Positions 1 to 50,515 of a DNA stretch of 56,187 nt are shown piece by piece (position 1 is the first letter of the stretch; each line of letters starts with the position of its first letter). Source of the stretch: a virus. The stretch is taken from positions 1 through 56,187 of IMG/VR virus record IMGVR_UViG_3300036979_000103, one strand, 5' to 3'. A model generated the notes under the pieces. The model had not been told where the DNA came from and made no database searches. It was given only the letters and a program-made list of their open reading frames with translations. The translations under genes and the position numbers were made by a program.

Positions 1-1234
1 TCATTTGTATATCCCAAGCTCTAACTTTATACCAAGGAACATCTTCATACTTATCTGCATCAAGATCCATGAACTTCCAGTCAAGAATGTTCACATTACC
101 ATCTTCTTCAATAGCTAAGAAATCCACAGTACCTGCAATTTTTCTTTTCTTATCAAATATTCTAACTTCAGACATAAATCTAGTTCCTTCAGGAAATGAA
201 TTAAGTCTTGCCTCTAGATTATCTTTAAGCATTTTATACATTCTTACATCCTTTGGATTTAACTTAGATACATAATTAGAATCATCTAATGGTTCTTCTC
301 TACGTAACCCTGTAGTAGGATCTACAAATACTAATTGTGCATGTTCAATATCAGCATGTCCATCTGTACCTTTTTCTCCTTTAAGATCATTTAAAGCTTT
401 TTTAAATCCTTCATCTCCAGGACCCTTAAATACTTTATCATAAAACTCTTTTACATAATCAGAAACTCTTCGTACAGCTTTTATATCACCTAATTGATAA
501 ACACCTTCATCTAATGTAATTTTATTAGATACATCTAATAAATCATTAAATACTTTTTCTCCATTAGAGAATTGGAAATATGCACTCTCTTCAGATACAT
601 CTATGTCTTCTATACTGGCTATCTTACCAGACAATACATCTAAAGATGCTTGATCAAATCCACTTCTTGCAAAGAATAATCCTTTAAGATAATCAACAAT
701 CTTATCAAACCAATTTTTAGCAAGAGTATTTTCTAATCTATTAGTTAAAACTTTAGCAATAGCTTCTTCTTTAAGTTTTAGATAATCTCTCTTACCATCT
801 TTCTGATAAGCTGGATTATTACCATAAGTAGCCACCACTTCATCTAATATAGGATTACCATTTATTTCTTTTAGAAGTTGTTGGTATAAGACTGGATTAG
901 TTTGTTTAATAATAGCTACAGCAAAGTGCATAGCTTCTTCAGGAAGAGCTTCATTCTCTTTTCCCTCTACCACTTGAATAAGTTTTTGCATGATTAAAGC
1001 AACACCATTAGCATCTACTTTCTTACCATCTACTACTACATTACTGACAATTTTATAATCAACACCAATCGATTTAATGAATTCTTTCATTAAGCTGATT
1101 AATTTTGGAGAAGCTTTCTGAGCAGCAGTTTCTTTAGCAATTTGTTTATCATATTCAATCTCAGCTAGAATAGGATTACCCACTCTAGCTAAAATTTCTT
1201 GAAATGCTGGATCATTTGGATTTGTACAAGCCAT
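1..1234 (-). CDS. PD-(D/E)XK superfamily nuclease, truncated at the window edge
   Basis: The frame is open from the ATG at 1234 to the left edge, giving 411 residues with no stop, so the C-terminus lies outside. Near the visible end it shows the PD-(D/E)XK core: a Glu in FMSEVRIF, then IAGTVDFLAI, then NILDWKF (the D-x-K pair), followed by an aromatic helix starting PWYKVRAWDIQ. This matches RecB/Cas4-like nucleases, which cleave DNA using Mg2+. The N-terminal 200 residues are helical and unrecognised. Its start overlaps the stop of the giant polymerase gene (TAATG), so the two are probably translationally coupled, which suggests it is a virion cargo or late protein processing DNA during entry or packaging. 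The nuclease fold is well supported; the role is inferred. Confidence 0.8.
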   Translation of the reverse strand, partial: MACTNPNDPAFQEILARVGNPILAEIEYDKQIAKETAAQKASPKLISLMKEFIKSIGVDYKIVSNVVVDGKKVDANGVALIMQKLIQVVEGKENEALPEEAMHFAVAIIKQTNPVLYQQLLKEINGNPILDEVVATYGNNPAYQKDGKRDYLKLKEEAIAKVLTNRLENTLAKNWFDKIVDYLKGLFFARSGFDQASLDVLSGKIASIEDIDVSEESAYFQFSNGEKVFNDLLDVSNKITLDEGVYQLGDIKAVRRVSDYVKEFYDKVFKGPGDEGFKKALNDLKGEKGTDGHADIEHAQLVFVDPTTGLRREEPLDDSNYVSKLNPKDVRMYKMLKDNLEARLNSFPEGTRFMSEVRIFDKKRKIAGTVDFLAIEEDGNVNILDWKFMDLDADKYEDVPWYKVRAWDIQM

Positions 1235-4200
1235 TAGTAACAGTCTTTTAGTTTATTAATTACATCTTCTTTATTCTCAGCTAAAGCATCATTGATATAT
1301 AGTTTAGCTTGATCAATTGTCATTTTATATTTAGTAGCAAAGTTAGTTAAAATTTGCTCTTTATCAACGTTTGAAAAGTCTTTTATTGTATCAAATGATT
1401 CAACACCTTCTTGTACAATTGCATTCAATTTAGAATCTATTTCAGCATTAGATATTTGTATATTAGAAGAAGATGGTAACACTTCCACCTCATCACTTGC
1501 TCTTGTTATAGCTGTATAGAACCATCTTGCAGCATCCCATGATTCAGCTACATAGTTTTGATTAACAAATACTTTTTTCCATTGAGACCCTTGAGATTTA
1601 TGTGCTGTAATAGCATATCCGTATGTAGCAATTGATATAGCAGGACTTAACTTTGTTCCTTTCTTAGTATTCATCATCCATCCATCTAATGCACTATATA
1701 GTCCTGGACTACTTTCTCTAGCAGCTTTTAATATTTGTGCATGATATATACTTGGTTTATCTACATTAGGTAGAAACAATGTAGGAACTTCTATTCCTTC
1801 ATTATTAACTACAAATGCTAAATAGATATCATACTTACTAGATTTTCCAAAATTGTCTGTAAATGTTATATCAAATTTTGTTGGTTCACCTCTTACATCT
1901 TTTGCATTAAACACTTCAGAGTTTGAATAATCAGAAGAGTTAGCTATAGAAATAATTGTCTCACCTGGATTCAATATATTTTTAGCAGCTTCGCCAAACT
2001 TAGCTTCTCTTGCTAATTTATTCATTAATAGTCTTTCATTATTTGTAGCAACAATCATAGCTACATCTTCATTAGCTTTTACAGCTTGTTTGAAGTTTTC
2101 TACAAATTCATTTTTAGATCTTGTCACTTTAAAATCTTCTGTAGATTCTGTAGGAACATATGATTTTTTATCATTTCTAATAACTGTAGCCACTTTTAAA
2201 ATACTACTATCTAAAGACTGACGTTTAACCTCTGTTAGTTCTGTCTTATCATTCTTCACTTCCTGCACCTTACCTTGGAATAAACCAGAATCTTCACCTA
2301 CAGGTTGTAATTGATAACTATCTCCCATAAAGATAAGTACATTGTTCTTACGTTTAGTTGAGTCTAATAAATCTGCCATCAATGTTTTCTCAATCATAGA
2401 AGATTCATCTATAATAATTACAGAGTTTTTAATATCAGCACTTTTCTCCCACTCTCCTTGGTCATTAGGTTCACCATATATTGTCTTATGTATAGTAGAA
2501 GCTACAGAACCAACACCAGTAGATTTTAGTTTATCATTTAACACCTTAGCTGCTTTGTTTGTAGGAGCAATAACTAGTATAGCTTTTCCTGCTTGCTTAG
2601 CATATTTTGCTATGTTCTCAGCTATTGTAGTTTTTCCTGTTCCTGCATATCCAGCTAACAAATAATGACCATCACCTTTTCTATCTATAAGCGTAGATAT
2701 TTCTTCTAATGCTTTTCTTTGTCCTGATGTGTAACCAATCTGTACATTTCTTAAATCAAATATAGAAGGTCTATTAAGTTGTTGTTCCATAAAAGGAGCT
2801 TCAGCTTCTGTAGGTTTAGAAAAATCATATACATACATTTTACCTTTTCCTTCAAACCATGATTTAGATGTAGGAAATTTAAATTCTTCAGCAGAAGTAA
2901 GTCCTTCTGATTTTAAAATTTGTTCTTGTCCACCAGCCTCACCTATTGTAAGTAGTCCTCTATTAGTCACATTAAATTCAACACCGTTGATGTTAGTTTT
3001 TGCTGTAGCTCCTACAGGAAGACCAATATATTCAAATTCTTTTTGAGTTCTGATTGTAGTAGTTTTTTGTCCACTAGCAATTTTTTCTTTATTATCAGGT
3101 TGTAAATTAATCGTTACTCTTTCAGGAGTTTCTTCAGTTACAGCTTCTGTAGGTCTAAGTTCTTCTCTTACTTCCATAAGTAATCTTGGAAACTCTTTAC
3201 CCCATTTACCTTTATCTTGTACATGCGTTAATTCTGCATTTCCTGTAGCTAATAATTTAATAATAGCTTCTGGATTTTGTTCAAAAGATTGTTTTATTAA
3301 ATCTTTCATAATTCTAGAAGAATTAGCATCCCATTCTTTTGTTCTAAGTCCTACTATTTTACCTCCTAAAGATTTTACTTGTGCAGGAGAATATTTTCCA
3401 GTTATATCATTTAAAAAACTTTGTACATCTAAAGGTTGATCTGTAACTTTACCAGCAAATGCTAATTTTGCTTTTTGAAAAGCAGTTTCAACATTTTTAA
3501 AAGTAACTTGTGGTAAATCTTTTCCAATATATTTAAAAACTCTAAAAGCAAAATTACTTAATTCAGCATTCTCTCCTGTACCTGCATAGATATTTATTTT
3601 TTCTCCACTCAATGCTTGTGCAGGTTTAGTTATAGTTGTTTCAGATGCAATAGCTGGTTTGCTAGGCATACCTGGTTGTAAAGGCATCACTCTTCTCATT
3701 GTAACTGTTATTCTATATGAACCTGGTTCATAAGATTTGCCATCTAATTTAGTTATTAATTCTGGTAAAAAACTATCTTGAGGTTTAGCAAAAGTTCTAT
3801 GATAAACTTCTCTGTTTACACCATCAACACCAAATACATATCCTGCACCTGCTTTAAGATCTAATTGTTTAGGAGAACCATCTCTTGATTCAATAGAGAA
3901 GTTTCCTGTTCCACCAATGTTAATTCCTATAACAGGATAACCAATTGCTGATCTACTTTCATCTACATCATTATGAGAACTAATAAAACTAGTTGGTTCA
4001 TAAAGATTAATGATAGCACCATCGTAATTAGTCATATCTACACCTGTAGCTTTTTGCATCAACTCTCTAAATCTTGGAGTGATAGGTGCTAAAGGTTGAT
4101 TGTTAATAGAACTATCATAGTATCCATATTTAGTTTTGTTTCCTGGATTTATAACATCTAGAATGTTCATAGATTGTTTTCCAGGATTATTTGATTTGTA

Positions 4201-7200
4201 ATCCCATCTTAATCCTAATCCAATCATTTTACTAGCAGCTGGACCTTTAAGCGTTCTAGCAGCTTGTTCTTCTAAGAATGGTTTTAAATAATCAAATAGT
4301 TCAAGTTGCTCATCTTTTGTAAGAGCTTCTTGATTTACATATATACCATCTTTAACTTTTACTCCTTTAGGTTCTCCAGCCATTTGTTTAGTTGCAGCTT
4401 GCGTAGGTTTATTTCTTTCAATGTATTTTTTATAAAATTCTGTATCTGTAGTAAATTTATAATTTCCAGAAGCATCTTCTCCAACATATATTTCTTGATC
4501 AGGAGTTGGATAAATATATAACTCGTTTCTACCTACTTTACTCATTGTATTCCAATTATCTTTATTCAAATACCAGTATTGACCATCAATGTTCAGTTGT
4601 CCTTTAGATACTTTCTTAGCTCCCATTTTTAAAAGAACAGATTCTGTATCTTTTGGAGATAATAAAATTTCTTCTTCCTCACTTACAGAAGAAACTAATA
4701 CTTCTGTTGGTAAAGATGTAGGAGCAACTTCTTCTTGACCTTGTGCAGAAAATGCATTAACAATGTCATCATCTTTCAATTCTTCTTGAATTGGCATACC
4801 TCCATTATCAATAGCAGAAGGAGTAAAATCTGTATTTATTTCAACAGCTCTGTTACCATCACCATATACATTAATTTGTTTATAGTAGTAATCATATCCT
4901 TTCACTTTAGGATCTGCATTATATATTTTTAATGGAATACGATTACCAAATTCATCAACATTATTTGTATACACTTTCTTATAATAGTATGCGTTATAAA
5001 GATCTTGTGAACCTTTTTGTTTCATAATAGCATAATCTTTCTTAGTGATTTCTAAACCAGTTGTAATGTTAATTTTCTTACCTTCCACATTAGTTACCAC
5101 TTTAGGAATCTTTAAGAAATCAGAAGACAATTGGAATGAATTAAATGTATCATTCAATACAATTAGTTTTCTTGATGTTTGTGTAACACCTTTCATTGAC
5201 TTAAAGTTTGGTAAGAAATAGATTAATTCATCTTCTCCTGTATTAGGATTCATTCTAACGCTTTTTTCATTGTACTCTCCTGTATAAGCATTAGGTTGTG
5301 GAGTGTGTACATACGGTCTAAACTCAGTGAATACATCTGTGTTTGTGAAATTGTTTCTTTCAAACATTCCATTCTCAAAAGCTTTAATACTTTTGTCAGC
5401 TCTAAGTTGTTCTATAATAGGAGCAATCTTAGCTGCATAATCTTCTACAGGAATAATGTTTCTTATAGATATAGCAGATTGTCCTGTTCCTTGTAGAATA
5501 GCTACATTAACAATGTTATTATAAAGAGCATTGAGTTCTGGACCAGAATCTCTTAACTCTCTCATCATACCTACATATAAATTCTCATTATATGCATCTT
5601 TAACATTTGCTTTAAGTTCTATAGATTTAGCAGATCCATCTCTATTTCCTGGTACAGGAACTAAATCTTGTAAGATTTGTACAGAAGGGTATTTTTGTTT
5701 AGCTTGTTCTAATTGATTAACCACTGCAGTTTCAGAATCTACAAGCAAAGGTTTAATCATATCTGACATAACTGTGTTATTCTGTATAACATAATCTATA
5801 AAAGAATTTTTGATTAAGTTAGCTATCTTCTCATAGTCATCAGCAGACATATATTTTCTTGTAGCATATCTTTTCAATGTAGATAATGTGTATGCTTTGA
5901 TTTCAGGAAGTTCTGATTTCATAATTGCACCAAAAGATCCAAATGATTTTGATAAAAGTTCAGCTTGTTCACCAATGAATGTATTCTTTAATACATCATT
6001 TACATTAGATATTAGATTAAAATTACTTGCATTGAATGTTCCCCATTCTTTTTTAAGAAGAGCATCTGAACTACCAAATCTTGTTGTGTCATAATTTACA
6101 GCTTGTGTGTAGCTGAATAATTGATCTGCTAATATTTTATATTTAATAAATTCATTCAATATTAAATGTTGTTCAGCATTCTTAAGTGCACTAAGTTCAC
6201 CAGTCTTTCCATACTCTTCTATGTTATCAAGAAGTTGTTCTACAGATATTGCAGCATCTTCTAATGCTTTTTCTGTTGTAGGGAATAAAGTTTTAATATA
6301 TCCTATATTACCTTTGTTAGCTACACTTTTAGAACCTGTGTTATCTAAGTATTCTAAATACTTCTCTATGATAGGTTGATTTAAAAATAATATTCCTTCA
6401 TTAGCAGCACCAATAGATTCTAAAAACATGAATGTAGAAACTACGACATCACTCTTTACAATCTTAGTAATGAATGGGTTGTTAGCAATATCCACAAATG
6501 CTGTAGCATATCCAGATAATCTATTTGAAATAAGTTGTTTACCATCAGCAGTTGTTGTTCCAGATAAAGAAACATAACTTCTACCATTAACATCAATTCT
6601 ATTATGAGGAAGAATTATATCTAAGTCTTCTATAAATCTTCTATCTTGTTCAGATAGTGTTGCAAGTTTAGCAGGATCTAAATACACTTTAGCTTTCTGT
6701 CTTAACGAAAGACTTGTAATATTAACAGCAGCAATACCTACCCATCTCTTAGCAGTTATGAATCCATGACGCATTTTTGTCATGTAGTTTCTATTGATAA
6801 GTCTTCCTTTAACTTTTGATTCAGTGTATCCTCTTTTAGTATCTAATAACTCAGACATTTTCTCTAATCCAGCATCATCAATAGGTGTAATCAATTTAAC
6901 AAAGTTTTCCTTAAGTGTAAGAAGTTCTTCTAATGAATCATAGTACTCATTCTCAAGAGATTTCTTATACATTGTATTTGCATAATCATTTTTTAATTGT
7001 TGATTAAGTTGATTCAATGAAAGTTTATCTTTATCTGCATTTAAATTCTCTTGTTGATTAACAATATATTCAGAAGGACTTAGATTTTTTTCAAATGCTT
7101 GTTCTATTATATTTTGTAAAAGTTTAGAATGGTAGTTGTAAAAGTCTATCTGATCATTAGTCATCAATGAATCAATATCTGCAATTGATTGTGCACTAGC

Positions 7201-10200
7201 TGATTCAATTATTCTTAATACATCAATTGTTTTTGATCTAAAATCATCGTATTTTTCAATTTTATTGATTTCTTTTTGAATGGTATCTTCATACACTTTA
7301 CCATAGAAAGCTTTAGTAGCTTGTTCAGATCCTTTATATGTAACTAATCTAACATCACCATTAGCATCAGTGTATATAGATTTAAGATACATATTCAATT
7401 TATCAATATCAAAATCCGATCCTGCTTTAGTAGTGATTTCTGAAGGTACTATCACTGTACTTCCCATATACTGTGGTAAGAATCCTTTCACTCTAAACAC
7501 TTCAACAGAAGATAGAGCTTGTGTAGGAATTCTAAATCCTATACCAGTTAATATCTTTTTACCTTCATCTGTTTTTAAATATTCAAGAATTTGTTCATCT
7601 GTCTTCTTTCCAAATTTATCTTTGAACCAATGAGGAAGCATCACTTCACAATAGCGTTTTTCATCCTCATCTTCATAGAACTTAAGTGTGTCATCTGTAA
7701 GCATCACATCTTTCTTTTCTTCTTCTGTAAGAGCAGCATATTGAGCCTTAGTAATCTTAACCCAACCTTCATCAGTCTTTCTTGCAAGACTTCTTCCTTC
7801 TGTAGCTTTCTCAAACATTGTAACAGGAGCTTGTACATGAGGAGCTCCACTCATTGATGGAGAGATTAATGCTTTATTTACTAATGAATATAGAATACTT
7901 TTAATTTGGAAATATGAAGGAGAAGCTTCGAATGGCATAGAGAATTGACCATCTTCATTTAATTGAATTGTATCTTTTGCATTTTCAGATAACTCTCTTC
8001 TCATCATTTCATACATCAATGTTTCAGATATTCTCTTGTTATCTTCAAGAGCATATCCATCACCAAGATCTACAACACCAATTTTATTTAGTAACTCATT
8101 ATATTCATTTAAGTTTAAAAGTCGCAATGCTTTTGTATTTCTTTCAGCAGCATTTTTAATTACTTCTTTTCTTTCAGGAGTGGCACCAACAGGTTCTCCA
8201 TTTTCATAAAGATCCACTGTAGATAATTTTGTAAGCTGAGAACCTCTTGTTTGAGTTTTCTCTCCCTCAGTCATAGTTTCTACTTGTGTACCATATATCT
8301 TCCAAGGAACCTCAACTATATTGTTTTCTCCATATTCAGAATTGTTAAAATCACCATTACCATCATATACATTATGAAGATCTTGTGCTCCCACCTTTCT
8401 ACCAGATACAACAATGCTGTATCCAATATTTTGATCAAACATATTGTCATACATTTTTTGTAGACTAGTTCCTTCAACCATGTGATAATAAAGAGGCATT
8501 TGAGATGTCTTATCTAATACAAGGTCTATTTCTTTTTTATCAGCTTTGTTTCCAGAGATGATAGGTTTTCTTACAGCAAGTTTATGCTTAGGCATATCAA
8601 ATTTCAACAATACAGCATCTTTTGCTTTCAATTCAGTGTTGTCACCATAAGTCCATGTAATATCTTTTCTAGAATCATATGCTCTTCTTGTGTAAGCCAT
8701 ATGCCATTGATGAAATGCTTCAGCTTGAGTAGTCCATTGTCCTTCTTTAAGAGCAATCTCTTTATGTGTATTATCCATTAACCAAGACATTCCATCTGAC
8801 TCATCTGTCTTAGCATATTTCTCTTTTATTTCTTTTGGAATATTTGGCATCATAGCAATACTACCAACAATATCTATATTGCTAAATGTAATAGTTTTGG
8901 TGTATGATTTATAATTATGATGTCCTGGTGCCTTCGCATCTAACTTAATATCTCCTACAGAGTTATATTGTCTTTTTAAGAAGTTATTATATTCAGGAGT
9001 ATCAAATGTTCTTCTTCTACCAGATAGGAATGATTTAATACGTTTTGTTTCATCTAGTTTTCCTTTCTCAGTTTTAAATTGATAAGGATCTCCAAATAAT
9101 ACTTTATGATATTCTTGATTGTTTATCTCATAGTTAATATTGACAAAGTTTATAAAATTCATCACTTCATCAAATGTAACTTTACCATCTAATTTATATT
9201 TCTTTAAAAACTCTGTATCAAATTTAGTAAGATAGTATTCATCTTCTCCAACCATTGATATTTGATTAGAACTAACCAATGTATCAATAGTTTCTTTTGA
9301 TATATCTTCTACAAAGTTTTTTATATGATTATCTATCTTGGTTCTATTCTTAACAATATACTTTTCAATTTTATCAAATGAATCTTCGTCTTTAATCATT
9401 TTTTCAATAGCTTCAACAATATCTTGAGGAAGAATATCTTTCATGATTCTAAGTTCTTGAGACTTAGCTCTTGTATATAGATTTTGTTTTCTATCTTCTT
9501 GTGCTAATTTTATATCATCAATTAAATAGTTATTGTATATGGTGTAGATTTTATCCCAATGGTTACCCTCAAGAACATCATCCATAGAAATAACATTACC
9601 TAAGTTCATCATCCATTCTGTGGAGCTATCTCCAGGAATAAGAACATAATATTTACCATTGATGTTTTGATTAATCTCTTGGACAAATCTTTCAGCAAGA
9701 CCTAATTTAGCTGTAGATTTATTTTTTCCAGTAAGTTCATTTTTACTTCCTTGGATATATTCCACTTTAATTTCAGAAATTCTATTTCCATCTTTATCAA
9801 AGAAAAGTCCTCCTGGTTTTAATATTTCACTTCCTCTAGAATATACATCATTCAATTGAGGCATTTTTTGTAAAAGCTCAGTTAATGTTTTAGATTCATT
9901 GAATGTATTTTCAAAATAAGAAGGAGCATTGTTTTCTGAGAATGCACCAATACGTTGTCCTTCCACACCAAAGTATGTAGAGTCTTGACTAGGATTATTC
10001 ACTTTAGTATGTAGTCCAGCTAATATTCTAAGAGGCCCATTGATATCTAATCTCTTAGCATCAAATGTCATTAACTCATTATTCTTACCTAAGTAAGTGT
10101 GAATAGAATCTACAGCATCTGTAAATAGTTTTACCTCAGATGTTTTCTTTCCTTTTACAATAGTTTCTTTATCACTAAGTGCATTGTAAGTTCCTTCAGA

Positions 10201-13200
10201 AAATTCTACACCTAATTTATTTAAGAAGCTTAGCATATCGTTAGATTTCTTAATAGGAAGATCTGCAATTGCTACTGTGTTTATTTTATAAACATTTTCA
10301 TTTTTACTATTCTTACCATAAGTAATCACTTCACTTTTAACCTTACCTAAAACTTTCATGTTATTAATCCATGAATCTGTAGTTTGTTTAACTATTGTAA
10401 ATATGTTAGCATTGTTTGTGTATACATCTCCTTCTTCAGAAATATATTGTATTAACGCTTCAGGTTTTTGTCTTGTAAATGTATTGAAGAATTGAATAAA
10501 CAATCTCCAATCTGACTCTTTGAATAGACCAAAATCAAATGTATGTGTTTCTCTATTTCCTCCTAATGCTGCAAATACAGAAAGATAGTTTGAATCTTCT
10601 TTTGCGAGCTCTATAAGTTTATTAGTAAACTCAGCAGGATCATTTGTATTATGTAATCTATCTAATAGTGTAGCAAACACTCTATTAAAGTTTAAAAGTT
10701 TTAATCCTCCAATATCAGAAAGATTATAATCAGGAATTTTTAATTCTTTTCCTTTCTGCACTTTAGTTTGGTTCAATGCTTTTCTTTCAGTTAATGTAGA
10801 TAACAAGAACTTAAGAGCTCCTGTAGAATGTTTCTTCCAGTCTACAGAGAATGTATCTTGTGCATATTCTTTTCCATTAGCATTCTCATCATTTATAGAT
10901 ATAACATCTTCTGCATTAAATGATATACCTGTTGTTCTTAAGAACTCAATAGATCTTTTAACAAGTTCATTATATCTTTTTTCACCTAATGCATCTACTG
11001 CTCCAACAGATTCATATTCTTCTTTAACTTGATTGAATACTTGTTCTCCTGTAAGTTTTTCAGGATTGAATAAAAGATCTTTTCTTCCTTCTCTAAAAAT
11101 AATAAGTTTCACCTTAGCAACCATATCTTGAATAAACTCATTGGTAGCTTTCTCAGATAATCCCTCTATTGCTCTATATTCTGGAGCCATTGATTTTGCT
11201 CTTTCTGATAGTTTTGTTTCTTTAAACTTACCAGAATCAATTGCATTAAATAATTGATTCTTCAAAGAAGGATTAATAATAAATGCTTTGAAGAAGTCTA
11301 CTATCTTCATAAAGAAATTACGTATAGCTTGACCTAATGATATAGCTTCTAATTTACCAAGTCTAAAATCAGCAAAGTCATCAGCAATTCTTTCTTTAAT
11401 TATTTTATCAGATATATATGGATCTGAATAATCATATTTTTTACCAGATTGTCTATCTGTAAATTCTCCTTTTTTATTTCTGAATTCAGTAAGTAAATTA
11501 TTCTTTTCAGTTTCTGTTAAGAAGTCAGACCATATAGCTTCAAATATTTCATGGTACTCTGTACCTTTTAATCCACCTCTAACAAACTTAGCAACACCAT
11601 CTTCAAATACACCCCATGCTCTTATATCTCCTCTTTCAATAATGTTTTCTAATATCTCAAAAGGAATGAAAGGAACCTTTTCTGCATGCCATAATTTGAA
11701 TGCTTCTAATTCAGAATTAGTCATTCTATCAATAGAGTCCTTTCCTTTTTCTCTAAACTCAGAAGGACCTTTTTTATTTCCAAAGTTAAAAGAAGAATCA
11801 AATGGTTTTTCTTCTGATACTTCTTCATCAGAAACTTCTTCTTCTGCTGGAGCTTCTTTCTTTTCTTTAGCTTTAGGAGCTGCTTGTTTAGGAGCATTTG
11901 CTAAATCTATTATTTCTCTACTAACTTTTATATTAGCAAATAGTTTTGCCTTCTCTTCTAATAAAAGATCTTTACCTAATGCTGCTTTAATATCATCTGG
12001 TACATTAGCTTCAGTAACTGGATTAGATGCTATTGTAGATAGATTAGAATCAATTGCATTTATTAATGGGCGTTCTGTAGAAAGTTTTGTAATAGTATCA
12101 TTATTAAGTATCTCCACCTCAACAATACTTTCACCATTCTCTTTAATTATCTTTCCTATAAATGATATAGGACCTGCATTAATAATATTAGATGTATTAA
12201 CTTTTTTATTATCTAATTTGTATTCACCAACAACATCACCATCTTCTTCAACAATAATCTCTTCTTCTATTTCTTCTTTAACTGGAACTCTATCATAAGG
12301 AAGAACTTCTTTATCTGTTATAAATGTATACTTTTGTTTATATGGATTGTTGTTATCTGTTGGTTTAGCTGTATGTGTAATCAATGGTGTATCTTCTGTT
12401 GAACGAGAAGATCCATCAGGATTTTTACTAGATAATAAATATGTTTGGTAGTTCTTCCAAATAACACGTTTTAAAGCACCATCTTTATCTACAACATATT
12501 CTGTAAACTTTTTAGAAGTTCCTTCTTCTAACGTTCTATTATTAACTGTAATGAATGCATCTTGAAGAGCATCCATGATTTCTTTTCTACTATTAGGAAT
12601 TGCAGACAATGGAAAAGATTTATCACCAATTTTAAATTCCATTGTATTAGTATCTATACCTATTTGACTAGGTGTAGATGTATCTGCTTTAGATCTCCAA
12701 AATAAAACGTTTTGTAAAAATTTAGAATAGTTATAATTTAATTTTACAGGTTTACCACTATTAGATTTTTCAATTAAGTCTTTTGCTAATGCATCTATAA
12801 CAGCAAATATATTACCTGCTTGTTTGTTTGTAACATTTTTATTATTTGCAAAATCTAAAAGATCACCATAGTTAATTAATGTGGTTCCTTTAGTAAAAGT
12901 TAAAAGCTCTCCATTGTGTTCAAACTTACCAGTTGTAACAACATTTAATAAACCATCTTGATTAGAAATTATATCTTCTCCATCTGGTCCAAGTATATCA
13001 GACATGTGATTGTCTTCATATACATCATTGATTTTGTTTTGTCTAGCTATTCCTCTTGATATAGCAAATGAATAAGGAGTGTATCCTTCTTGAGCAAATA
13101 CATCTTCTCTAAATATCTTGTAAGCTTCTAAAGCTTTTGCAGCTTCTATTTCTTGACCAGCTCTAACTTTTTCATATCCTCCTTCTGTATAAAGACTAGC

Positions 13201-16200
13201 AGAAGTCATTGTTTGAAAAATAACATGATCTAATATAGTAGGATTTTCTACTCCCACTTCACTTATCGCATTACCATCTACATCAACAAAGAAATTTCCT
13301 TCAGGTGTTTGTAGAATATACACTTGAGCCATGAAACCCATTTCAACATTAGTTTCATCTTCAGTAAGAGTGTCTCCTATTTGTTTATCAAATGAAAGTT
13401 GTACAATTCCTTCAAGTCCTAATTGTTTTGCATTGTTAGGAGTAACAATGATAACTTTCATATCAGGTCTATTCTTAGAGAACTTAGCATTGTTTAAGAA
13501 CTTTCTAGATCTTTTTACATGTGGTAAATTATTTGTATACTCACCAGCTGTATCTTCAGAAGCACTAGTTGAAGAAAGAAATAATATATCAACATCTTTT
13601 CTTTGATCCTCTGATCCAAAATACTCACCTGGCTCAATAAAAGTAGTTTCTACATCTGCAGAAGACAATTCTAATTTATCTTGCTCTGCATCAATAACTT
13701 CTTTATCCTTACCTAATTTCTCTTCTTGAGTTTTTATTTTAGCGTATCCTTGTAATCTTGAAGGATCAATGTTTAATATATCTCCATTAACATCTTCCAC
13801 CTTAACTGTACCATCTTCATTTGTTGCTAACACTTTAACCTTAGATAGATTAGTATTCTCATCAGTTAAATCTTTAGCTTCTTCTTTAGCTTGCTCTTCA
13901 GTCTTATGAAAAGATGAAGTACCATCAGGAGCTATCACTTCATATCTATCTTCAGCAATTTTATTAATAGAAGCTTTCTTTGTAGCTTTCACTTCGTACT
14001 CTCTATTAACTTCTAATGGTTCCTGTTTTTTCTCACTGTTTACAAATGTGGCACCAGTGACAGTTTCATCAGCTTCTTCAGCAGCAACTTGGTTATTAGC
14101 AATATCTTTTGCTTGTTTGAAATATTTATCAAATCCTTCTTCTGCAGAAAGATTATCAAAAATTTCACTTGCTAATTTTTTATATGCACTATTTTTATTA
14201 ATGTCAGCTCCATATACATATAACTCTGAAGCATTTTCAAGACCTACAACATCTTCTTTCTTACCATCTTGATTATTCAATTCAAAGTTCAGTAATGAAT
14301 GAAATGTTTTTAAATCAAGAGATCCACCATTTAAAGCAATATTAATCTTTTCAGATTGTGTACGTAAAGCTTTTACTTGCTCTCTAGTAGCTTTTTTATC
14401 TGCAGGTGTAGTATAATCAGTTATTGTTTTATTTAATTGATTAGCTCTTTCCTCATATGATCTAGATAATTCTTTTAATGAATCTTTATCAGTGATGCTA
14501 GCTAAAGTGTCATTATCAATAAGAGGATTTATTTGTGACACTTTATCTTGTATAGAATCAAGTCTATGGTTTACATCATCTTTGATTGATGCATAATAGG
14601 TAAGATCTGTTTTCCAATTTTCAAAGGTGTCATGATTAGCATTCTCATCTATTGCTTCAGGAGTTTTTGGATCTGTAGAAGAAGTAAATGGATTTTTAAA
14701 TGTAGAATTAATAGCTTCTGATGTTTTATTAATATCATTAGCTTTCTCAATTAATGAATCTACATATCCACTTACAGTTTTTTGATTAGATGAATTAAAA
14801 TCCATTCCAAAAGTCTTTTGGAAATCTTCTCTATCAAGATCTTTTAACATTTTTAATTGTTCAATTGTAACATCATGCATTCCTGATGGAATACGTGATT
14901 GTACAAAATTGAAAAACATATCATTTTTAAGATTTTTATATCTGAATATATCACCACTCTTAGCAGCTTCATTCATTTCTTTTGCTATACCAATAGAATT
15001 TAATGTATTATCATACTTATCAGAAAGAATACCTGTCATTCCATATCTATTAAGCATGTTAACAGAAGAGTTTAATCTAGCATCTTTACCTTGTCCTTTT
15101 TTATAATCATACATTTGTTGCCCTCCACCAATTAACATAGCAGTAAGTCCACCAACAATCATATTGTTTATACCTTCTGTAGTATTAAACTGCTCAGATA
15201 ATCCATAAGTAGTAGAACTAGTTATTTCTTTTAAATCATCCCAGTTTTGTTTTTTAACTGGATTATTAAGGTTTTTATATTTTCTTGTATAGTAATCATA
15301 TGTTCCTCTCTCAGCAGCAAATTGTCCACCTTCTTCATATACACCTTCAGATAATACATTAGGAAGTTTAGGTTTAACAAAATCCCAAACTCTATCTTTT
15401 ATACCTGCAGCAGATTTCTTTTCAAATACATCAAAGCTTCCTTCTTTAAGACCCACCTTACCAGATTCTCCTATACTTCTTGTAAGACTTCCTGTAACAT
15501 TTTTCTGTGCTGTAGTAAAAGACTTAAATAAATTATCAAACTGCACAGCATTAGATACAGTGAGTAATGCCATGTTGATACCAAATCTAGTATTCATTGC
15601 ATCAGTAGAATAGTCTTCTATTTCTTGAAGAGCTTGTCCTATTGGTTCTTCACCAAAGTTATTATCTTTATATTGTTGGATTAATTCTTCTTTAACATGT
15701 CTGTATCCATCTCTAGCTTCAACACCAGATTCTGTCTGTGCAGCTCCCCAACTAATAATACCATAACGTGCACCATTCAATACTTTTTCAGACTGAGCTA
15801 AGTTTCCTAATTGTTGTATTTTTAAAATCTGTTTCTCACTCTTCCCTAATGTTTTTGCTAAGTCTAATACCTTATCAACTTTATTAGTTCCACCTGCAAT
15901 TTTATTCATCCACAAAGCAGCTTTACCTATTTGACTAGCAAATAATGGAACTGCTCCTATACCTTCTGTAACAAAACCAATTGCAGCATCTTGAACAACT
16001 GCTCCTGCTATAGCACCAGCTGTAAATCCAAGATTTTTAATAACTGATTCTCCCCAAAAGTTTGCAGAACCTGGAGCAAAAGGAATCATCGCTAGATATG
16101 GATGAGCTTTCTCTTCTCTAGTCATATAATTAGGAAGAACATCTTCAAAATTCTTAATCCAATTATCTATGCTTCCTTCATATCCATCTGGATCACCAGC

Positions 16201-16656
16201 TAATCTAGCCATACGTTCTGATGCACTACCACTTTTAAGAGCTGATATTGTATTAGGAATATCTGTAAGAGATTGTGCAAATGTACCAGTAGCTGTAACA
16301 CCAGCCTTAACAAGACTATGTCCAAGTTTAGTATACCAAGATTGTTGTAACCCATATATGTTTTCAAGATCTACATCTCTTTCATACATAGGATAACGTT
16401 TATTATCTAATAATGTTTTTGCACTTACAGAACTAAAAGGTCTATCAAATGATCTTTGAGTTGGAGCTTGTACATTAGCAAGTTCATCTAGGCTTAATCC
16501 CATCTCAACTTTATGATCATTACTACCCCAATTTCCACCCATATTAGTATTTATCTCTCTTGTTACAGGAGATCCTAATGGTGCTTGTGGTAATCTAATT
16601 TCATTGTCAGATCTATCAGAAACATTATCTATAAGTTCATTGTCAAAAATTGGCAT
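1234..16656 (-). CDS. Giant virion RNA polymerase fused to AlkB-like, NADAR, ASCH-like and SF1 helicase domains (5140 aa)
   Basis: This is a multidomain virion protein of the crAss-like phage RNA polymerase family. Asp3081-Phe-Asp3083-Ile-Asp3085 inside GSDFDIDKLNMYLKS is the metal-binding DxDxD motif of that family, related to two-barrel polymerases, and is preceded by the conserved GFRIPTQALSS stretch. Other parts in order: hydrophobic helices at about 205-250 and 495-515; a zincin-like but altered HEIFE at 1702-1706; an AlkB-type 2OG-Fe(II) dioxygenase at about 4180-4325 (H4228, D4230, H4286, a C-terminal Arg near 4316); a NADAR domain at about 4350-4497 (VETAFQKAK, LLMEVREEL); an ASCH-like domain at about 4510-4612; and an SF1 RecD/Dda-like helicase at about 4635-5060 (Walker A GYAGTGKTT, IIIDES, AITAHKSQGSQW, YTAITRA). 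Family knowledge says the polymerase is packaged and transcribes early genes after entry. The extra domains could remodel or protect nucleic acid. No frameshift is seen. Confidence 0.9.
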   Translation of the reverse strand: MPIFDNELIDNVSDRSDNEIRLPQAPLGSPVTREINTNMGGNWGSNDHKVEMGLSLDELANVQAPTQRSFDRPFSSVSAKTLLDNKRYPMYERDVDLENIYGLQQSWYTKLGHSLVKAGVTATGTFAQSLTDIPNTISALKSGSASERMARLAGDPDGYEGSIDNWIKNFEDVLPNYMTREEKAHPYLAMIPFAPGSANFWGESVIKNLGFTAGAIAGAVVQDAAIGFVTEGIGAVPLFASQIGKAALWMNKIAGGTNKVDKVLDLAKTLGKSEKQILKIQQLGNLAQSEKVLNGARYGIISWGAAQTESGVEARDGYRHVKEELIQQYKDNNFGEEPIGQALQEIEDYSTDAMNTRFGINMALLTVSNAVQFDNLFKSFTTAQKNVTGSLTRSIGESGKVGLKEGSFDVFEKKSAAGIKDRVWDFVKPKLPNVLSEGVYEEGGQFAAERGTYDYYTRKYKNLNNPVKKQNWDDLKEITSSTTYGLSEQFNTTEGINNMIVGGLTAMLIGGGQQMYDYKKGQGKDARLNSSVNMLNRYGMTGILSDKYDNTLNSIGIAKEMNEAAKSGDIFRYKNLKNDMFFNFVQSRIPSGMHDVTIEQLKMLKDLDREDFQKTFGMDFNSSNQKTVSGYVDSLIEKANDINKTSEAINSTFKNPFTSSTDPKTPEAIDENANHDTFENWKTDLTYYASIKDDVNHRLDSIQDKVSQINPLIDNDTLASITDKDSLKELSRSYEERANQLNKTITDYTTPADKKATREQVKALRTQSEKINIALNGGSLDLKTFHSLLNFELNNQDGKKEDVVGLENASELYVYGADINKNSAYKKLASEIFDNLSAEEGFDKYFKQAKDIANNQVAAEEADETVTGATFVNSEKKQEPLEVNREYEVKATKKASINKIAEDRYEVIAPDGTSSFHKTEEQAKEEAKDLTDENTNLSKVKVLATNEDGTVKVEDVNGDILNIDPSRLQGYAKIKTQEEKLGKDKEVIDAEQDKLELSSADVETTFIEPGEYFGSEDQRKDVDILFLSSTSASEDTAGEYTNNLPHVKRSRKFLNNAKFSKNRPDMKVIIVTPNNAKQLGLEGIVQLSFDKQIGDTLTEDETNVEMGFMAQVYILQTPEGNFFVDVDGNAISEVGVENPTILDHVIFQTMTSASLYTEGGYEKVRAGQEIEAAKALEAYKIFREDVFAQEGYTPYSFAISRGIARQNKINDVYEDNHMSDILGPDGEDIISNQDGLLNVVTTGKFEHNGELLTFTKGTTLINYGDLLDFANNKNVTNKQAGNIFAVIDALAKDLIEKSNSGKPVKLNYNYSKFLQNVLFWRSKADTSTPSQIGIDTNTMEFKIGDKSFPLSAIPNSRKEIMDALQDAFITVNNRTLEEGTSKKFTEYVVDKDGALKRVIWKNYQTYLLSSKNPDGSSRSTEDTPLITHTAKPTDNNNPYKQKYTFITDKEVLPYDRVPVKEEIEEEIIVEEDGDVVGEYKLDNKKVNTSNIINAGPISFIGKIIKENGESIVEVEILNNDTITKLSTERPLINAIDSNLSTIASNPVTEANVPDDIKAALGKDLLLEEKAKLFANIKVSREIIDLANAPKQAAPKAKEKKEAPAEEEVSDEEVSEEKPFDSSFNFGNKKGPSEFREKGKDSIDRMTNSELEAFKLWHAEKVPFIPFEILENIIERGDIRAWGVFEDGVAKFVRGGLKGTEYHEIFEAIWSDFLTETEKNNLLTEFRNKKGEFTDRQSGKKYDYSDPYISDKIIKERIADDFADFRLGKLEAISLGQAIRNFFMKIVDFFKAFIINPSLKNQLFNAIDSGKFKETKLSERAKSMAPEYRAIEGLSEKATNEFIQDMVAKVKLIIFREGRKDLLFNPEKLTGEQVFNQVKEEYESVGAVDALGEKRYNELVKRSIEFLRTTGISFNAEDVISINDENANGKEYAQDTFSVDWKKHSTGALKFLLSTLTERKALNQTKVQKGKELKIPDYNLSDIGGLKLLNFNRVFATLLDRLHNTNDPAEFTNKLIELAKEDSNYLSVFAALGGNRETHTFDFGLFKESDWRLFIQFFNTFTRQKPEALIQYISEEGDVYTNNANIFTIVKQTTDSWINNMKVLGKVKSEVITYGKNSKNENVYKINTVAIADLPIKKSNDMLSFLNKLGVEFSEGTYNALSDKETIVKGKKTSEVKLFTDAVDSIHTYLGKNNELMTFDAKRLDINGPLRILAGLHTKVNNPSQDSTYFGVEGQRIGAFSENNAPSYFENTFNESKTLTELLQKMPQLNDVYSRGSEILKPGGLFFDKDGNRISEIKVEYIQGSKNELTGKNKSTAKLGLAERFVQEINQNINGKYYVLIPGDSSTEWMMNLGNVISMDDVLEGNHWDKIYTIYNNYLIDDIKLAQEDRKQNLYTRAKSQELRIMKDILPQDIVEAIEKMIKDEDSFDKIEKYIVKNRTKIDNHIKNFVEDISKETIDTLVSSNQISMVGEDEYYLTKFDTEFLKKYKLDGKVTFDEVMNFINFVNINYEINNQEYHKVLFGDPYQFKTEKGKLDETKRIKSFLSGRRRTFDTPEYNNFLKRQYNSVGDIKLDAKAPGHHNYKSYTKTITFSNIDIVGSIAMMPNIPKEIKEKYAKTDESDGMSWLMDNTHKEIALKEGQWTTQAEAFHQWHMAYTRRAYDSRKDITWTYGDNTELKAKDAVLLKFDMPKHKLAVRKPIISGNKADKKEIDLVLDKTSQMPLYYHMVEGTSLQKMYDNMFDQNIGYSIVVSGRKVGAQDLHNVYDGNGDFNNSEYGENNIVEVPWKIYGTQVETMTEGEKTQTRGSQLTKLSTVDLYENGEPVGATPERKEVIKNAAERNTKALRLLNLNEYNELLNKIGVVDLGDGYALEDNKRISETLMYEMMRRELSENAKDTIQLNEDGQFSMPFEASPSYFQIKSILYSLVNKALISPSMSGAPHVQAPVTMFEKATEGRSLARKTDEGWVKITKAQYAALTEEEKKDVMLTDDTLKFYEDEDEKRYCEVMLPHWFKDKFGKKTDEQILEYLKTDEGKKILTGIGFRIPTQALSSVEVFRVKGFLPQYMGSTVIVPSEITTKAGSDFDIDKLNMYLKSIYTDANGDVRLVTYKGSEQATKAFYGKVYEDTIQKEINKIEKYDDFRSKTIDVLRIIESASAQSIADIDSLMTNDQIDFYNYHSKLLQNIIEQAFEKNLSPSEYIVNQQENLNADKDKLSLNQLNQQLKNDYANTMYKKSLENEYYDSLEELLTLKENFVKLITPIDDAGLEKMSELLDTKRGYTESKVKGRLINRNYMTKMRHGFITAKRWVGIAAVNITSLSLRQKAKVYLDPAKLATLSEQDRRFIEDLDIILPHNRIDVNGRSYVSLSGTTTADGKQLISNRLSGYATAFVDIANNPFITKIVKSDVVVSTFMFLESIGAANEGILFLNQPIIEKYLEYLDNTGSKSVANKGNIGYIKTLFPTTEKALEDAAISVEQLLDNIEEYGKTGELSALKNAEQHLILNEFIKYKILADQLFSYTQAVNYDTTRFGSSDALLKKEWGTFNASNFNLISNVNDVLKNTFIGEQAELLSKSFGSFGAIMKSELPEIKAYTLSTLKRYATRKYMSADDYEKIANLIKNSFIDYVIQNNTVMSDMIKPLLVDSETAVVNQLEQAKQKYPSVQILQDLVPVPGNRDGSAKSIELKANVKDAYNENLYVGMMRELRDSGPELNALYNNIVNVAILQGTGQSAISIRNIIPVEDYAAKIAPIIEQLRADKSIKAFENGMFERNNFTNTDVFTEFRPYVHTPQPNAYTGEYNEKSVRMNPNTGEDELIYFLPNFKSMKGVTQTSRKLIVLNDTFNSFQLSSDFLKIPKVVTNVEGKKINITTGLEITKKDYAIMKQKGSQDLYNAYYYKKVYTNNVDEFGNRIPLKIYNADPKVKGYDYYYKQINVYGDGNRAVEINTDFTPSAIDNGGMPIQEELKDDDIVNAFSAQGQEEVAPTSLPTEVLVSSVSEEEEILLSPKDTESVLLKMGAKKVSKGQLNIDGQYWYLNKDNWNTMSKVGRNELYIYPTPDQEIYVGEDASGNYKFTTDTEFYKKYIERNKPTQAATKQMAGEPKGVKVKDGIYVNQEALTKDEQLELFDYLKPFLEEQAARTLKGPAASKMIGLGLRWDYKSNNPGKQSMNILDVINPGNKTKYGYYDSSINNQPLAPITPRFRELMQKATGVDMTNYDGAIINLYEPTSFISSHNDVDESRSAIGYPVIGINIGGTGNFSIESRDGSPKQLDLKAGAGYVFGVDGVNREVYHRTFAKPQDSFLPELITKLDGKSYEPGSYRITVTMRRVMPLQPGMPSKPAIASETTITKPAQALSGEKINIYAGTGENAELSNFAFRVFKYIGKDLPQVTFKNVETAFQKAKLAFAGKVTDQPLDVQSFLNDITGKYSPAQVKSLGGKIVGLRTKEWDANSSRIMKDLIKQSFEQNPEAIIKLLATGNAELTHVQDKGKWGKEFPRLLMEVREELRPTEAVTEETPERVTINLQPDNKEKIASGQKTTTIRTQKEFEYIGLPVGATAKTNINGVEFNVTNRGLLTIGEAGGQEQILKSEGLTSAEEFKFPTSKSWFEGKGKMYVYDFSKPTEAEAPFMEQQLNRPSIFDLRNVQIGYTSGQRKALEEISTLIDRKGDGHYLLAGYAGTGKTTIAENIAKYAKQAGKAILVIAPTNKAAKVLNDKLKSTGVGSVASTIHKTIYGEPNDQGEWEKSADIKNSVIIIDESSMIEKTLMADLLDSTKRKNNVLIFMGDSYQLQPVGEDSGLFQGKVQEVKNDKTELTEVKRQSLDSSILKVATVIRNDKKSYVPTESTEDFKVTRSKNEFVENFKQAVKANEDVAMIVATNNERLLMNKLAREAKFGEAAKNILNPGETIISIANSSDYSNSEVFNAKDVRGEPTKFDITFTDNFGKSSKYDIYLAFVVNNEGIEVPTLFLPNVDKPSIYHAQILKAARESSPGLYSALDGWMMNTKKGTKLSPAISIATYGYAITAHKSQGSQWKKVFVNQNYVAESWDAARWFYTAITRASDEVEVLPSSSNIQISNAEIDSKLNAIVQEGVESFDTIKDFSNVDKEQILTNFATKYKMTIDQAKLYINDALAENKEDVINKLKDCY

Positions 16657-16667
16657 AATCTATTATT

Positions 16668-19358
16668 TTATTTATAGGTTTTTAAAAAATCAGAAACAGT
16701 TCCAGGACCAATGTTTTTCATTTGTTCCTGAACAGTAGCAAGACTAGAAAATTCATTTCCAATATATCCAGTTTGCCATACTCCATTATTTTGTGCATAC
16801 ATTCTAAGAATGTAACTATCATTTGGTCCACCATCATTATCAGCAGATCCTTCAACATCAAATCTAACTAAAGGTGCCAATGCTGTATGTGCTAAGCTAG
16901 GAGCATTATATCCACTTAAACGAGCATTAGTTGCAGCTGAACTATCATTACCTCCTATTAAGTTAGTTGTATGTGCAGCTGAAGCAAACACTTGTGCTTT
17001 AATATCATTCCAAGGATTACTTTGAGCAATTTTTGAAGAGTATGTATATAACTCTTGAGCTGTAATAGGAATGATTTGTTTATCTTCTCCACTTGTTACA
17101 ACCAAATTAGCTGATCCATCATATTTCTTTTCTATTGTATAGGATGCATTTTTATCTTCTCTAATTTTAGATAATACTGATGGTGAAAAGTCTCCCCATT
17201 TTTGAACATCTACTTGTCCAAGCTTTTGGTATTCATTTAATTTATTTCCAATTATTTGATCAACAAGAGTTTCATCACCTTTATTGTTTTTATAATCAAT
17301 AGTTCCAACTTGCATTTGTCTTTCAGGCATTCTCTTAGCTAAAAAGTCTGATTCAAAACTTCTTTTCTCTTGTTGTATTCTATATAATTGAGGATCGTAT
17401 TTTTGTTTAATTGAATGTGCTTTACTAAGTAATACTTTTTCTGTTGGAGTTAAATCTTTACCTAAATAGTTGTGTACATAAGCTCTTGCCAAAGCTTCAT
17501 TTTTTGTACCTTTAGTTGATTTCAATAATCCATTAACATCTAATGATGTAGTACCTACACCACCACCTCCAGTAGCACCTGCACCACCTCCAGTTGTAAT
17601 AATAAATGTTTCAGCATTTTTTGAAAAGTTATATAACTCAGTTGATGTATATAAAGTTCTTCCCTTAGAATCATTTACTCCACCTTCTTGTCTAAGAATG
17701 TCTTGTGATCTATCATCAAATATACTTGATGCATCTTTAGTAGCTTTGTACAAAGATTGTTTTTGACCTAATGTAATTTCAAGTGCTCTTCTTTCTTCTA
17801 GATATTTAGCTAGATTAGGATTATGTAAACTCTTAACTAACTTAGATGGGTTCTGTGCATACTCTCTTGCTAAGTAATCTAAATAAGTTGTTTTCTTTTG
17901 ACTTGTAGCTAATGAAGGATTTGTCACCTTATCTAAATATTTGTTAGTAAGAAGATCAATTTGACCAGATACTATAACTACACCACCTTTTGTTCTTTCT
18001 CCACCTATACCTAATATTTCTTCATTTAATTTTCCTGCAGATGGAGTGTCAATATCTGTAGCAATTGCTTGATCTGTAACTGGTATATCACCTGTAGCAA
18101 GACCTCCTTTAAGTTTAGCTGCAGCTAATGTTTGTTCAGCATAGAATTTAGTTACTCCCCAATTGAATGATCTATCTTGATTTCTTTGATCTCTTGCAGC
18201 ATTGTCATATGAAAATTGTAACTGTCTTTTCTGCATGTCTGCTTGAAAATATGGATTAGCTTTATACTCTTGTTCATAACTTTGGTATGAAAGATCTTCG
18301 GCTAATCCAGTTAAAGTTTTTTCTGTATAAATTTTATATTTATATTGTTCAATATCTTTATTAGAATCTATATCTTCTATTTGTTTAGTTAATTGTTTTT
18401 CTAAAGAACCATCTAGTAACACTTTGTTTGCATCATTTATTTTTGCTTGAAGTGCATTTTTCTCAACATTTGTTAATTTAGGATTTGTTGTTAATTCTAA
18501 ATTATACTGCATCACTTTATCAGATATTATTTTTTTCTGATTATTATAATTTTTAGTAGATTGTTCTTTAAATGTATCAGCAGTAGCACCTCTATAATGA
18601 TACCATGAATCTATTTTTAATTGCTCTTGATCATTTTCATTTAAAGAGCTATAGAAGTTAGCTAGAATTTTCTCAGCTGGTTTACCCTTCACCTTAACAG
18701 CTAACATAGCATCATCTATTTTAGCCACTCCTTTTGAAGGATCTAATGATGCATTCCCTTTTGCATCAAAATATAATGTGTTACCAGCATTATCTCTCTT
18801 ATATGGATTCTCAATAGATTTATCCACTTCATGTATCTTATCAGCTACTTCTCTAAGTTTTTTATCTATATCAGTATACTGAGTGTATCTACCAGTGTAA
18901 GATTCTTTTATATCTTTTTTATTAATATATTTACCAACGCCTTCTTCAAACTTAGCTCTATTTTGAACAGATGATTTTCCAGCTGCTTCAGCTTCATTTA
19001 ATATCTTTTGTTCTCTTCTTATTCTAGCAGTAGAGCTTACAGCATTGATTACATTTTCATCTTTAGCTATTTGATTAGTCATTCCATTAACAGAATTAAC
19101 TAATTGGAAATTAGAGAAATCACCAGCTGCAACACCTTTAAGATTATTACCAAGAGCATTAAGTTTAGATTGTAGATATTTTTTATCTAAATCACTAGCA
19201 ACATCCATTCCTGCAATATTGTCAATTGTAGTTTGTATTTTTTCTACACCTTGTTCATACTGTTGTTGTTTTTGCATACCAACTTTCACCATTGCCTCTA
19301 CAGGTAATTGTGATACGTAAGGATTAAAAGTTGGGATTTTGTCAGTATATGAAGCCAT
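16668..19358 (-). CDS. Putative virion cargo protein, helical (896 aa)
   Basis: I recognise no enzymatic domain. The protein is largely helical and charged, rich in Lys, Gln and Asn in its first 350 residues (VEAMVKVGMQKQQQYEQG near the start), with a Gly-rich patch near residue 590-600 and few cysteines. Its place directly upstream of the polymerase gene, only 11 bp away, matches large cargo proteins packed in crAss-like virions and ejected with the DNA. It is the first gene after a candidate promoter at 19404-19438, so it and the polymerase probably share one late transcript. The start is the first ATG of the frame and lies about 40 nt after that promoter. The cargo role is inferred from order and composition. 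Confidence 0.65.
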   Translation of the reverse strand: MASYTDKIPTFNPYVSQLPVEAMVKVGMQKQQQYEQGVEKIQTTIDNIAGMDVASDLDKKYLQSKLNALGNNLKGVAAGDFSNFQLVNSVNGMTNQIAKDENVINAVSSTARIRREQKILNEAEAAGKSSVQNRAKFEEGVGKYINKKDIKESYTGRYTQYTDIDKKLREVADKIHEVDKSIENPYKRDNAGNTLYFDAKGNASLDPSKGVAKIDDAMLAVKVKGKPAEKILANFYSSLNENDQEQLKIDSWYHYRGATADTFKEQSTKNYNNQKKIISDKVMQYNLELTTNPKLTNVEKNALQAKINDANKVLLDGSLEKQLTKQIEDIDSNKDIEQYKYKIYTEKTLTGLAEDLSYQSYEQEYKANPYFQADMQKRQLQFSYDNAARDQRNQDRSFNWGVTKFYAEQTLAAAKLKGGLATGDIPVTDQAIATDIDTPSAGKLNEEILGIGGERTKGGVVIVSGQIDLLTNKYLDKVTNPSLATSQKKTTYLDYLAREYAQNPSKLVKSLHNPNLAKYLEERRALEITLGQKQSLYKATKDASSIFDDRSQDILRQEGGVNDSKGRTLYTSTELYNFSKNAETFIITTGGGAGATGGGGVGTTSLDVNGLLKSTKGTKNEALARAYVHNYLGKDLTPTEKVLLSKAHSIKQKYDPQLYRIQQEKRSFESDFLAKRMPERQMQVGTIDYKNNKGDETLVDQIIGNKLNEYQKLGQVDVQKWGDFSPSVLSKIREDKNASYTIEKKYDGSANLVVTSGEDKQIIPITAQELYTYSSKIAQSNPWNDIKAQVFASAAHTTNLIGGNDSSAATNARLSGYNAPSLAHTALAPLVRFDVEGSADNDGGPNDSYILRMYAQNNGVWQTGYIGNEFSSLATVQEQMKNIGPGTVSDFLKTYK

Positions 19359-44657: not shown

Positions 44658-44693
44658 AATGTAGTTTAATTTTAAAAATTGGTTTTAATTTGT

Positions 44694-44763
44694 AGCGAAT
44701 TGAGGACTCGAACCTCGCTTCTGGGTTATGAGCCCAATGTGCTGACCAGTTACACTAAATCGC
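44694..44763 (-). tRNA. tRNA with anticodon CAT (Met, or Ile2 if modified)
   Basis: The transcript folds as a cloverleaf: acceptor GCGATTT with AATTCGC (one T-T mismatch), D stem GTGT with GCAC, anticodon stem TTGGG with CCCAG and loop CTCATAA, T arm GAGG-TTCGAGT-CCTC. Only one base lies between acceptor and D stem, where two are usual. No CCA is encoded. It sits between the capsid gene and the next structural gene, on the same strand. Confidence 0.9.
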
Positions 44764-44878
44764 AATTTGTAGAGTGGTTCCACCGAAGGAACCTGAACAT
44801 AGATACTATCCATTTCAAACACTCTATTTGAGAAGCTTCCCCTCGAGGAGGGAGAGGAGGTGAGGGGAACCATCTCGG
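44764..44878 (-). other. Structured non-coding stretch upstream of the tRNA
   Basis: Two foldable parts are visible. At about 44767-44823, TAGAGTG and CACTCTA close a three-way junction that contains hairpins GTTCC/GGAAC and ATAG/CTAT. At about 44837-44870, TTCCCCTC pairs with GAGGGGAA around a pyrimidine-rich loop. GC content here is higher than in nearby DNA. Open frames across it only arise by chance. It could be a small RNA, a leader for the tRNA, or a processing signal. Confidence 0.5.
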
Positions 44879-46497: not shown

Positions 46498-46531
46498 TGT
46501 TATTCGTTTTTGTTAATTATTTATTGTTTTG

Positions 46532-47785: not shown

Positions 47786-47818
47786 ATGTAGTTGTATTTA
47801 TGTTTGGTTTTATTTATG

Positions 47819-47849
47819 TAAAAGTATAATAAGAGTTTATAATATCAAA
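47819..47849 (-). promoter_or_regulatory. Candidate Bacteroidota-type promoter for scaffold and capsid genes
   Basis: On the minus strand TTTG (47849-47846), 19 nt, then TACTTTTA (47826-47819), close to TTTG-N19-21-TAnnTTTG. It lies about 34 nt in front of the scaffold start. It lacks the palindromic upstream element of the two other candidates. Confidence 0.5.
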
Positions 47850-47904
47850 GTGTTATTGGTTGTTGAGTGCCAATTTTGTTGATAATATAGCATTAATGTT
47901 TTTA

Positions 47905-47922
47905 TCCCCTCCGAAGAGGAGA
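47905..47922 (-). terminator. UUCG-loop hairpin just after the portal gene
   Basis: On the minus strand TCTCCTC, loop TTCG, then GAGGGGA: a 7-bp stem with a very stable tetraloop, 6 nt after the portal stop. It is followed by TAAAAAC rather than a T run, so it may stabilise the 3' end or terminate weakly. Confidence 0.5.
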
Positions 47923-47928
47923 AGTTTT

Positions 47929-50514: not shown

Positions 50515-50515
50515 T

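Follow-up and report, generated by a model that had tools for sequence, protein, structure and literature searches.

A predicted Crassvirales virion RNA polymerase fused to exchangeable enzyme domains, with facing cysteines where the chain is split

The DNA analysed here, called the window throughout, is a 56,187-base virus fragment whose contig edge falls within a gene. ORF analysis of the window revealed, on the minus strand at 1234..16656, an unbroken reading frame of 5,140 codons, whose 5,140-aa product contains only two cysteines, at residues 3003 and 5139. A single uninterrupted frame of 5140 residues had been claimed in the original prediction, which placed it at 2754-16656; the length and the high coordinate hold, and the low coordinate does not, because 2754..16656 corresponds to 4,634 aa and an ORF bounded at 2754 loses the helicase described below. 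Upstream of the giant ORF lies an 896-aa ORF (16668..19358, minus strand) that is free of cysteine and so carries none at its terminus. Further upstream, PHROG matches at 44935-52546 identify the crAss-like large terminase, portal and major head protein, accompanied by further virion protein families, and a tRNA-Met gene (CAT) sits amid the structural genes at 44692-44764. On the other side, the next ORF (1..1234, minus strand) runs off the contig edge after 411 aa. We call it gp65-like from the gene order; it is conserved in relatives, being 52-89% identical to their counterparts, and gives a weak exonuclease match (PHROG 298, 4.8e-4).

Up to residue ~3990, the giant protein combines two parts known from Crassvirales. 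Residues 1 to ~1820 (11197..16656, minus strand) are homologous to gp47 of crAss001 (blastp 1.8e-22, profile 2.6e-38) and weakly to gp67 of phi14:2, and thus correspond to what is elsewhere a separate virion protein, here fused ahead of the polymerase; the end of this gp67-like segment was placed from relative L063, in which the chain is split at that point. A scan of genome contigs with the gp67-like segment found no relative. The following gp66-like RNA polymerase core (residues ~1831-3990; 4687..11166, minus strand), conserved in relatives up to ~3990, matches the phi14:2 virion RNA polymerase both by phmmer (PDB 6vr4, 1.7e-22) and by blastp against gp66 (2.6e-27), and has tblastn matches in 104 phage records, most of them crAss-like. 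It contains the predicted DFDID catalytic motif with D3081, D3083 and D3085 (residues 3081-3085; 7402..7416, minus strand), invariant in eight aligned sequences. The sole other cysteine of the polymerase, residue 3003 (nt 7648-7650), lies in a YCEV motif that is likewise invariant across eight aligned sequences. The DxDxD motif within a gp66-homologous core and the crAss-like terminase, portal and capsid neighbourhood are both hallmarks of a Crassvirales virion RNA polymerase, and together they support, at the level of sequence, the reading of the giant ORF as such a polymerase carrying accessory enzymes in one chain.

The relatives share the core up to residue ~3990, whereas the sequence beyond it is not common to them. 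In the window, enzyme cargo extends the gp67-gp66 core by ~1,150 aa, and this cargo is positioned exactly at the border with the gp65-like next virion protein. Three of its domains, all named in the original prediction, have Pfam matches exceeding the curated cut-offs. An AlkB-type 2OG-Fe(II) oxygenase (residues 4161-4321; 3694..4176, minus strand; PF13532, 6e-13) retains the iron ligands H4228, D4230 and H4286 and the RxxxxxR motif (RITVTMR, 4315-4321); a NADAR domain (residues 4362-4486; 3199..3573, minus strand; PF08719, 2.5e-11, and PHROG 1017) scores 44.5 bits against a cut-off of 35.1; and an SF1 helicase of the Dda/RecD-like kind (residues 4642-5057; 1486..2733, minus strand) matches AAA_30 (PF13604, 4.5e-31), UvrD_C_2 (4.9e-13), the Dda-like PHROG 325 (6.6e-76) and, in the PDB, RecD2 and Dda, with an intact Walker A (4669-4677) and DESS motif (4750-4753). 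Between the NADAR domain and the helicase lies a 111-residue segment (residues 4509-4619; 2800..3132, minus strand) predicted to be ASCH-like. That it is a real conserved module is confirmed by its recurrence, at 46-48% identity, in L030, L035 and L064, but the ASCH identity could not be confirmed: the window copy has no Pfam match, the ASCH matches of two of the three relatives' copies fall below threshold (E 0.05-0.09), a PDB profile search did not settle the identity, and its AlphaFold model, of medium confidence (pLDDT 75), matches no PDB fold in Foldseek. A scan of viral contigs with this segment alone gave no matches, the copies having come solely from polymerase loci; in L064 (7544-7873) the copy lies within the polymerase core, a second place of insertion. 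As judged from these matches, the cargo is made up of three recognisable enzymes and one putative ASCH-like module fused onto an RNA polymerase.

Scans of viral contigs yielded 89 distinct polymerase ORFs, and the extension past the core was surveyed in 87 polymerases, the window included. It can be absent or reach ~1,500 aa, and in 45 of the 87 it measures at least 100 aa. The cassettes found there include helicase (9), HExxH (9), AlkB (6) and NADAR (6) domains; these counts, which rest partly on local profiles each seeded with one sequence, are approximate, and some second-round cross-hits are noise. ASCH-like, macro-like, DUF7831, cpYpsA and His-phosphatase cassettes also occur. The four-domain string of the window appears only once among the 87, in the window itself. 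The nearest sister (L001/L011, whose ORF lies in two pieces, one at either end of a single contig) has a ~89% identical core and a 93% identical helicase, but its NADAR is only 50% identical and AlkB is absent. Conversely, L002, L003, L108 and L154 have AlkB domains 91-93% identical to that of the window, even with core segments just 74%, 72%, 49% and 43% identical, respectively, which argues that cassettes move between phages. By sequence comparison, then, the domain string of the window represents a single state of a slot that varies, not a fixed machine. In L002, L008 and L010 the gp65-like protein has additional head segments, and in L063 there is an extra head segment at the split between the gp67-like and gp66-like parts, with motifs that look by eye like those of an ADP-ribosyltransferase. 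The C-terminal extensions, 19,282 residues in all, contain 19 copies of Q[LI][DSNG]LF, a clamp-binding-like motif (carried by L002, L005, L006, L009, L010, L026, L034, L044, L136, L154 and others), against none in 322,076 core residues.

The ends of these proteins follow a simple rule. The giant protein of the window terminates in a tail segment ending KLKDCY (residues 5090-5140; 1237..1389, minus strand), a tail type shared with relatives bearing other cargo (e.g. L011, L133, L146 and L154), with its cysteine at residue 5139 of 5140 (1240..1242, minus strand). The gp65-like ORF that follows has its sole cysteine, in the 411 aa seen, at residue 3 (1226..1228, minus strand). Almost always where the chain is split, the upstream protein ends in a cysteine and its downstream partner starts with M-x(1-4)-C, the proteins being otherwise almost free of this residue (polymerases contain 1.9 on average). 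Of 90 distinct polymerase ORFs, 88 have a cysteine within their last five residues, although these tails fall, by a crude grouping, into about 25 types shared by descent and are therefore not independent; uniform placement would yield 0.22 such tails among 86. The two exceptions are L053, which stops early inside the core, and L079, which is fused to the next protein. Correspondingly, 94 of 95 gp65-like heads have a cysteine at residues 2-7. The outer ends of the chain lack it, as seen for gp65-like tails (0/80), upstream-ORF tails (0/31) and polymerase heads (1/71), the single positive head being that of L063, in which the gp67-like and gp66-like parts are separate genes and the gp67-like tail ends KQCS. 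In L059, the extra gp65-like head segment forms a separate 534-residue ORF with cysteines at position 3 and at the last residue, while L079, a fusion of all three parts, has zero cysteines in 5,491 aa. Of a further 55 apparent cysteine heads in other ORFs, nearly all come from a single family of Cys-rich downstream proteins, of which the member tested is collagen-like.

The rule extends beyond the clade of the window. We inspected 17 named Crassvirales genomes from three families, recoded ones being translated with code 11, so that internal stops are expected in them. Junctions between unfused members of the trio carry both the tail and the head cysteine in all 17 genomes, with the tail residue 0-8 positions from the end; for crAss002 this count includes a corrected start, the head cysteine at annotated residue 35 corresponding to residue 3 of the close relative cr107. 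The gp67-gp66-gp65 trio of phi14:2 has four cysteines in 5,398 aa, all of them at the two junctions. In crAss001, DAC15 and cr128, the gp47-like gene lies on the strand opposite the gp50-like gene, and both ends keep their cysteine. Fused chains are usually without these residues, but some, such as gp33 of crAss002, retain internal cysteines. Outside the group, the phage contig L012 (6899-19562), in which no crAss similarity was detected, encodes a Dda-like helicase within a protein of 3,002 aa, next to a protein of 1,225 aa; both have a single cysteine, located where the two ends face each other (with a GTG start). This signature hints that the arrangement may be used more widely.

Several other explanations of the long chain and of its cysteines need to be weighed. 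The window is a metagenome contig, and a sequencing error that joined separate genes had been named as a way in which the fusion could be false. However, every one of the domains also occurs as an in-frame fusion in relatives taken from other assemblies: core, NADAR and helicase in one frame in L011, AlkB in the complete ORFs of L002 and L003, NADAR in L005, and helicase in L021, L038, L054, L055, L057, L076 and L092. With the same kinds of fusion in so many independent contigs, and with an ORF that terminates on a conserved cysteine tail, an assembly or frameshift artefact is extremely improbable, and we regard it as ruled out by these relatives. The sheer size of the chain and the variable, loosely ordered linkers joining the cargo would suit a polyprotein that a protease cuts into the polymerase and separate enzymes, as was also suggested originally. 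Between core and cargo, though, we noticed no conserved motif for cleavage. Relatives instead divide the chain in their DNA, as distinct genes whose boundaries recur at fixed positions and carry facing cysteines. A protease is thus neither required nor indicated, and proteolytic processing is, in our estimation, improbable.

As for the cysteines themselves, the distance between their tail and head codons is usually 13-42 nt, which could point to a DNA or RNA boundary element, such as a site of coupled translation or of recombination, rather than to a protein function. Against this stand the variable codon spacing, the use of both TGT (73 at either end) and TGC (12 at either end) and the persistence of both cysteines in L063 and L080, in which an ORF that by eye appears homing-endonuclease-like intervenes between chain genes (L063:5556-6236 and L080:13381-14121). 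The genomes of crAss001, DAC15 and cr128, with the genes apart on opposite strands and cysteines still at both ends, largely rule out a junction element at the DNA level, and a boundary element of any sort thus seems very improbable. A more serious competitor is that the terminal cysteines act as ligands of a metal such as zinc, or as part of a non-covalent dock, instead of forming a disulfide. Such an arrangement would require the same facing ends in the same order, would dispense with any redox change and could have two cysteines share a metal with other ligands. Yet there is only one cysteine per end, the surrounding tail and head sequences vary between types and no conserved partner histidine or cysteine was noticed, so we consider a metal site or dock unlikely, albeit less so than the other alternatives.

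Taken as a whole, the data are best explained by a polymerase gene with exchangeable cargo whose product is packaged, the separate proteins being linked by a cysteine pair, a reading that we hold to be probable. It builds on the architecture, the variability of the slot, the exchange of cassettes and the cysteine rule documented above. Packaging of the window's protein is likely by homology, as gp65-67 of phi14:2 and gp47/49/50 of crAss001 have been detected in virions by mass spectrometry (PMC10172136). The polymerase, its cargo and the gp65-like protein would be packed in the head and threaded via the tail into the cell; the crAss001 study describes cargo that crosses the tail in a partly unfolded state and suggests that there may be room for about six copies of each of the polymerase-associated proteins (PMC10172136). 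Once injected, the polymerase would transcribe early genes, and the cargo would act at once on nucleic acids, in roles that we infer from the domain families. The AlkB domain may take off alkyl adducts, and the helicase may travel along or open the incoming DNA. NADAR domains of phages were proposed to counter ADP-ribose-based defence (PMC9503650), and the one described here may strip ADP-ribose from bases, possibly opposing DarT-type toxins.

The presence of facing cysteines at each break and their usual absence from fusions fit a link that stands in for a peptide bond, and suggest a way to join the parts end to end for delivery. The upstream tail and downstream head cysteines would probably hold separate proteins end to end, most simply through a disulfide that arises inside the particle and is reduced once in the cytoplasm; in fused genes, the peptide bond would replace this link, and the cysteines are usually gone. 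It counts against a disulfide that it would have to form after assembly in a reducing cell, often in anaerobic habitats; other disulfides have nevertheless been resolved in crAss001 virions (PMC10172136). As to whether Crassvirus cargo is a cysteine-stapled, end-to-end chain that travels through the tail as one thread and parts in the reducing cytoplasm, we see the chances as evenly balanced.

Crassvirales virion polymerases are known to be large multidomain proteins (PMC7886860). The phi14:2 trio with gp66 (PDB 6vr4), gp67 and gp65 and the gp47/gp50/gp49 trio of crAss001 share with the window a homologous DxDxD core and agree with it in functional order and in the terminal cysteines; unlike them, the window fuses gp67 with gp66 and adds the cargo. 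A related layout is seen in giant fused transcription ORFs of Suoliviridae such as cr55_1 (4,551 aa) and cr272_1 (6,386 aa, with in-frame stops under code 11), in which a gp67-gp66-like fusion is followed by a separate protein with cysteines at the break. In combining unrelated effector domains within a giant chain, with lineage-specific shuffling, the window also resembles the polyvalent proteins, which are thought to be injected (Iyer et al. 2017, PMC5512222); however, AlkB, NADAR and ASCH are absent from the text of that paper, whereas the window has AlkB and NADAR, and of the LPD-type linker domains the window gives only LPD14, at E 0.12, below the cut-off. In Thermus phage P23-45, the virion polymerase is likewise reported to reside inside a virion protein (PMC10770324) of ~5,000 residues, there fused to the tape measure rather than to enzyme cargo. 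Our keyword searches of the literature, which covered few subscription papers, returned no paper on a crAss-like RNA polymerase with NADAR and nothing on cysteines or disulfides of cargo proteins. Within that scope, the earlier impression that the full domain string had not been described is upheld, and neither the slot nor the cysteine rule was found, the individual parts being of known kinds.

These observations present the packaged phage polymerase as a carrier of exchangeable enzymes that would be delivered at the very start of infection, and they name the place at which the enzymes are swapped. The cysteine rule, in turn, offers a simple, order-wide hypothesis for how huge separate proteins may be kept in order and in equal numbers through packaging and ejection. 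Because reduced and unreduced samples of crAss001 virions have already been described for mass spectrometry (PMC10172136), it may be testable on existing data.
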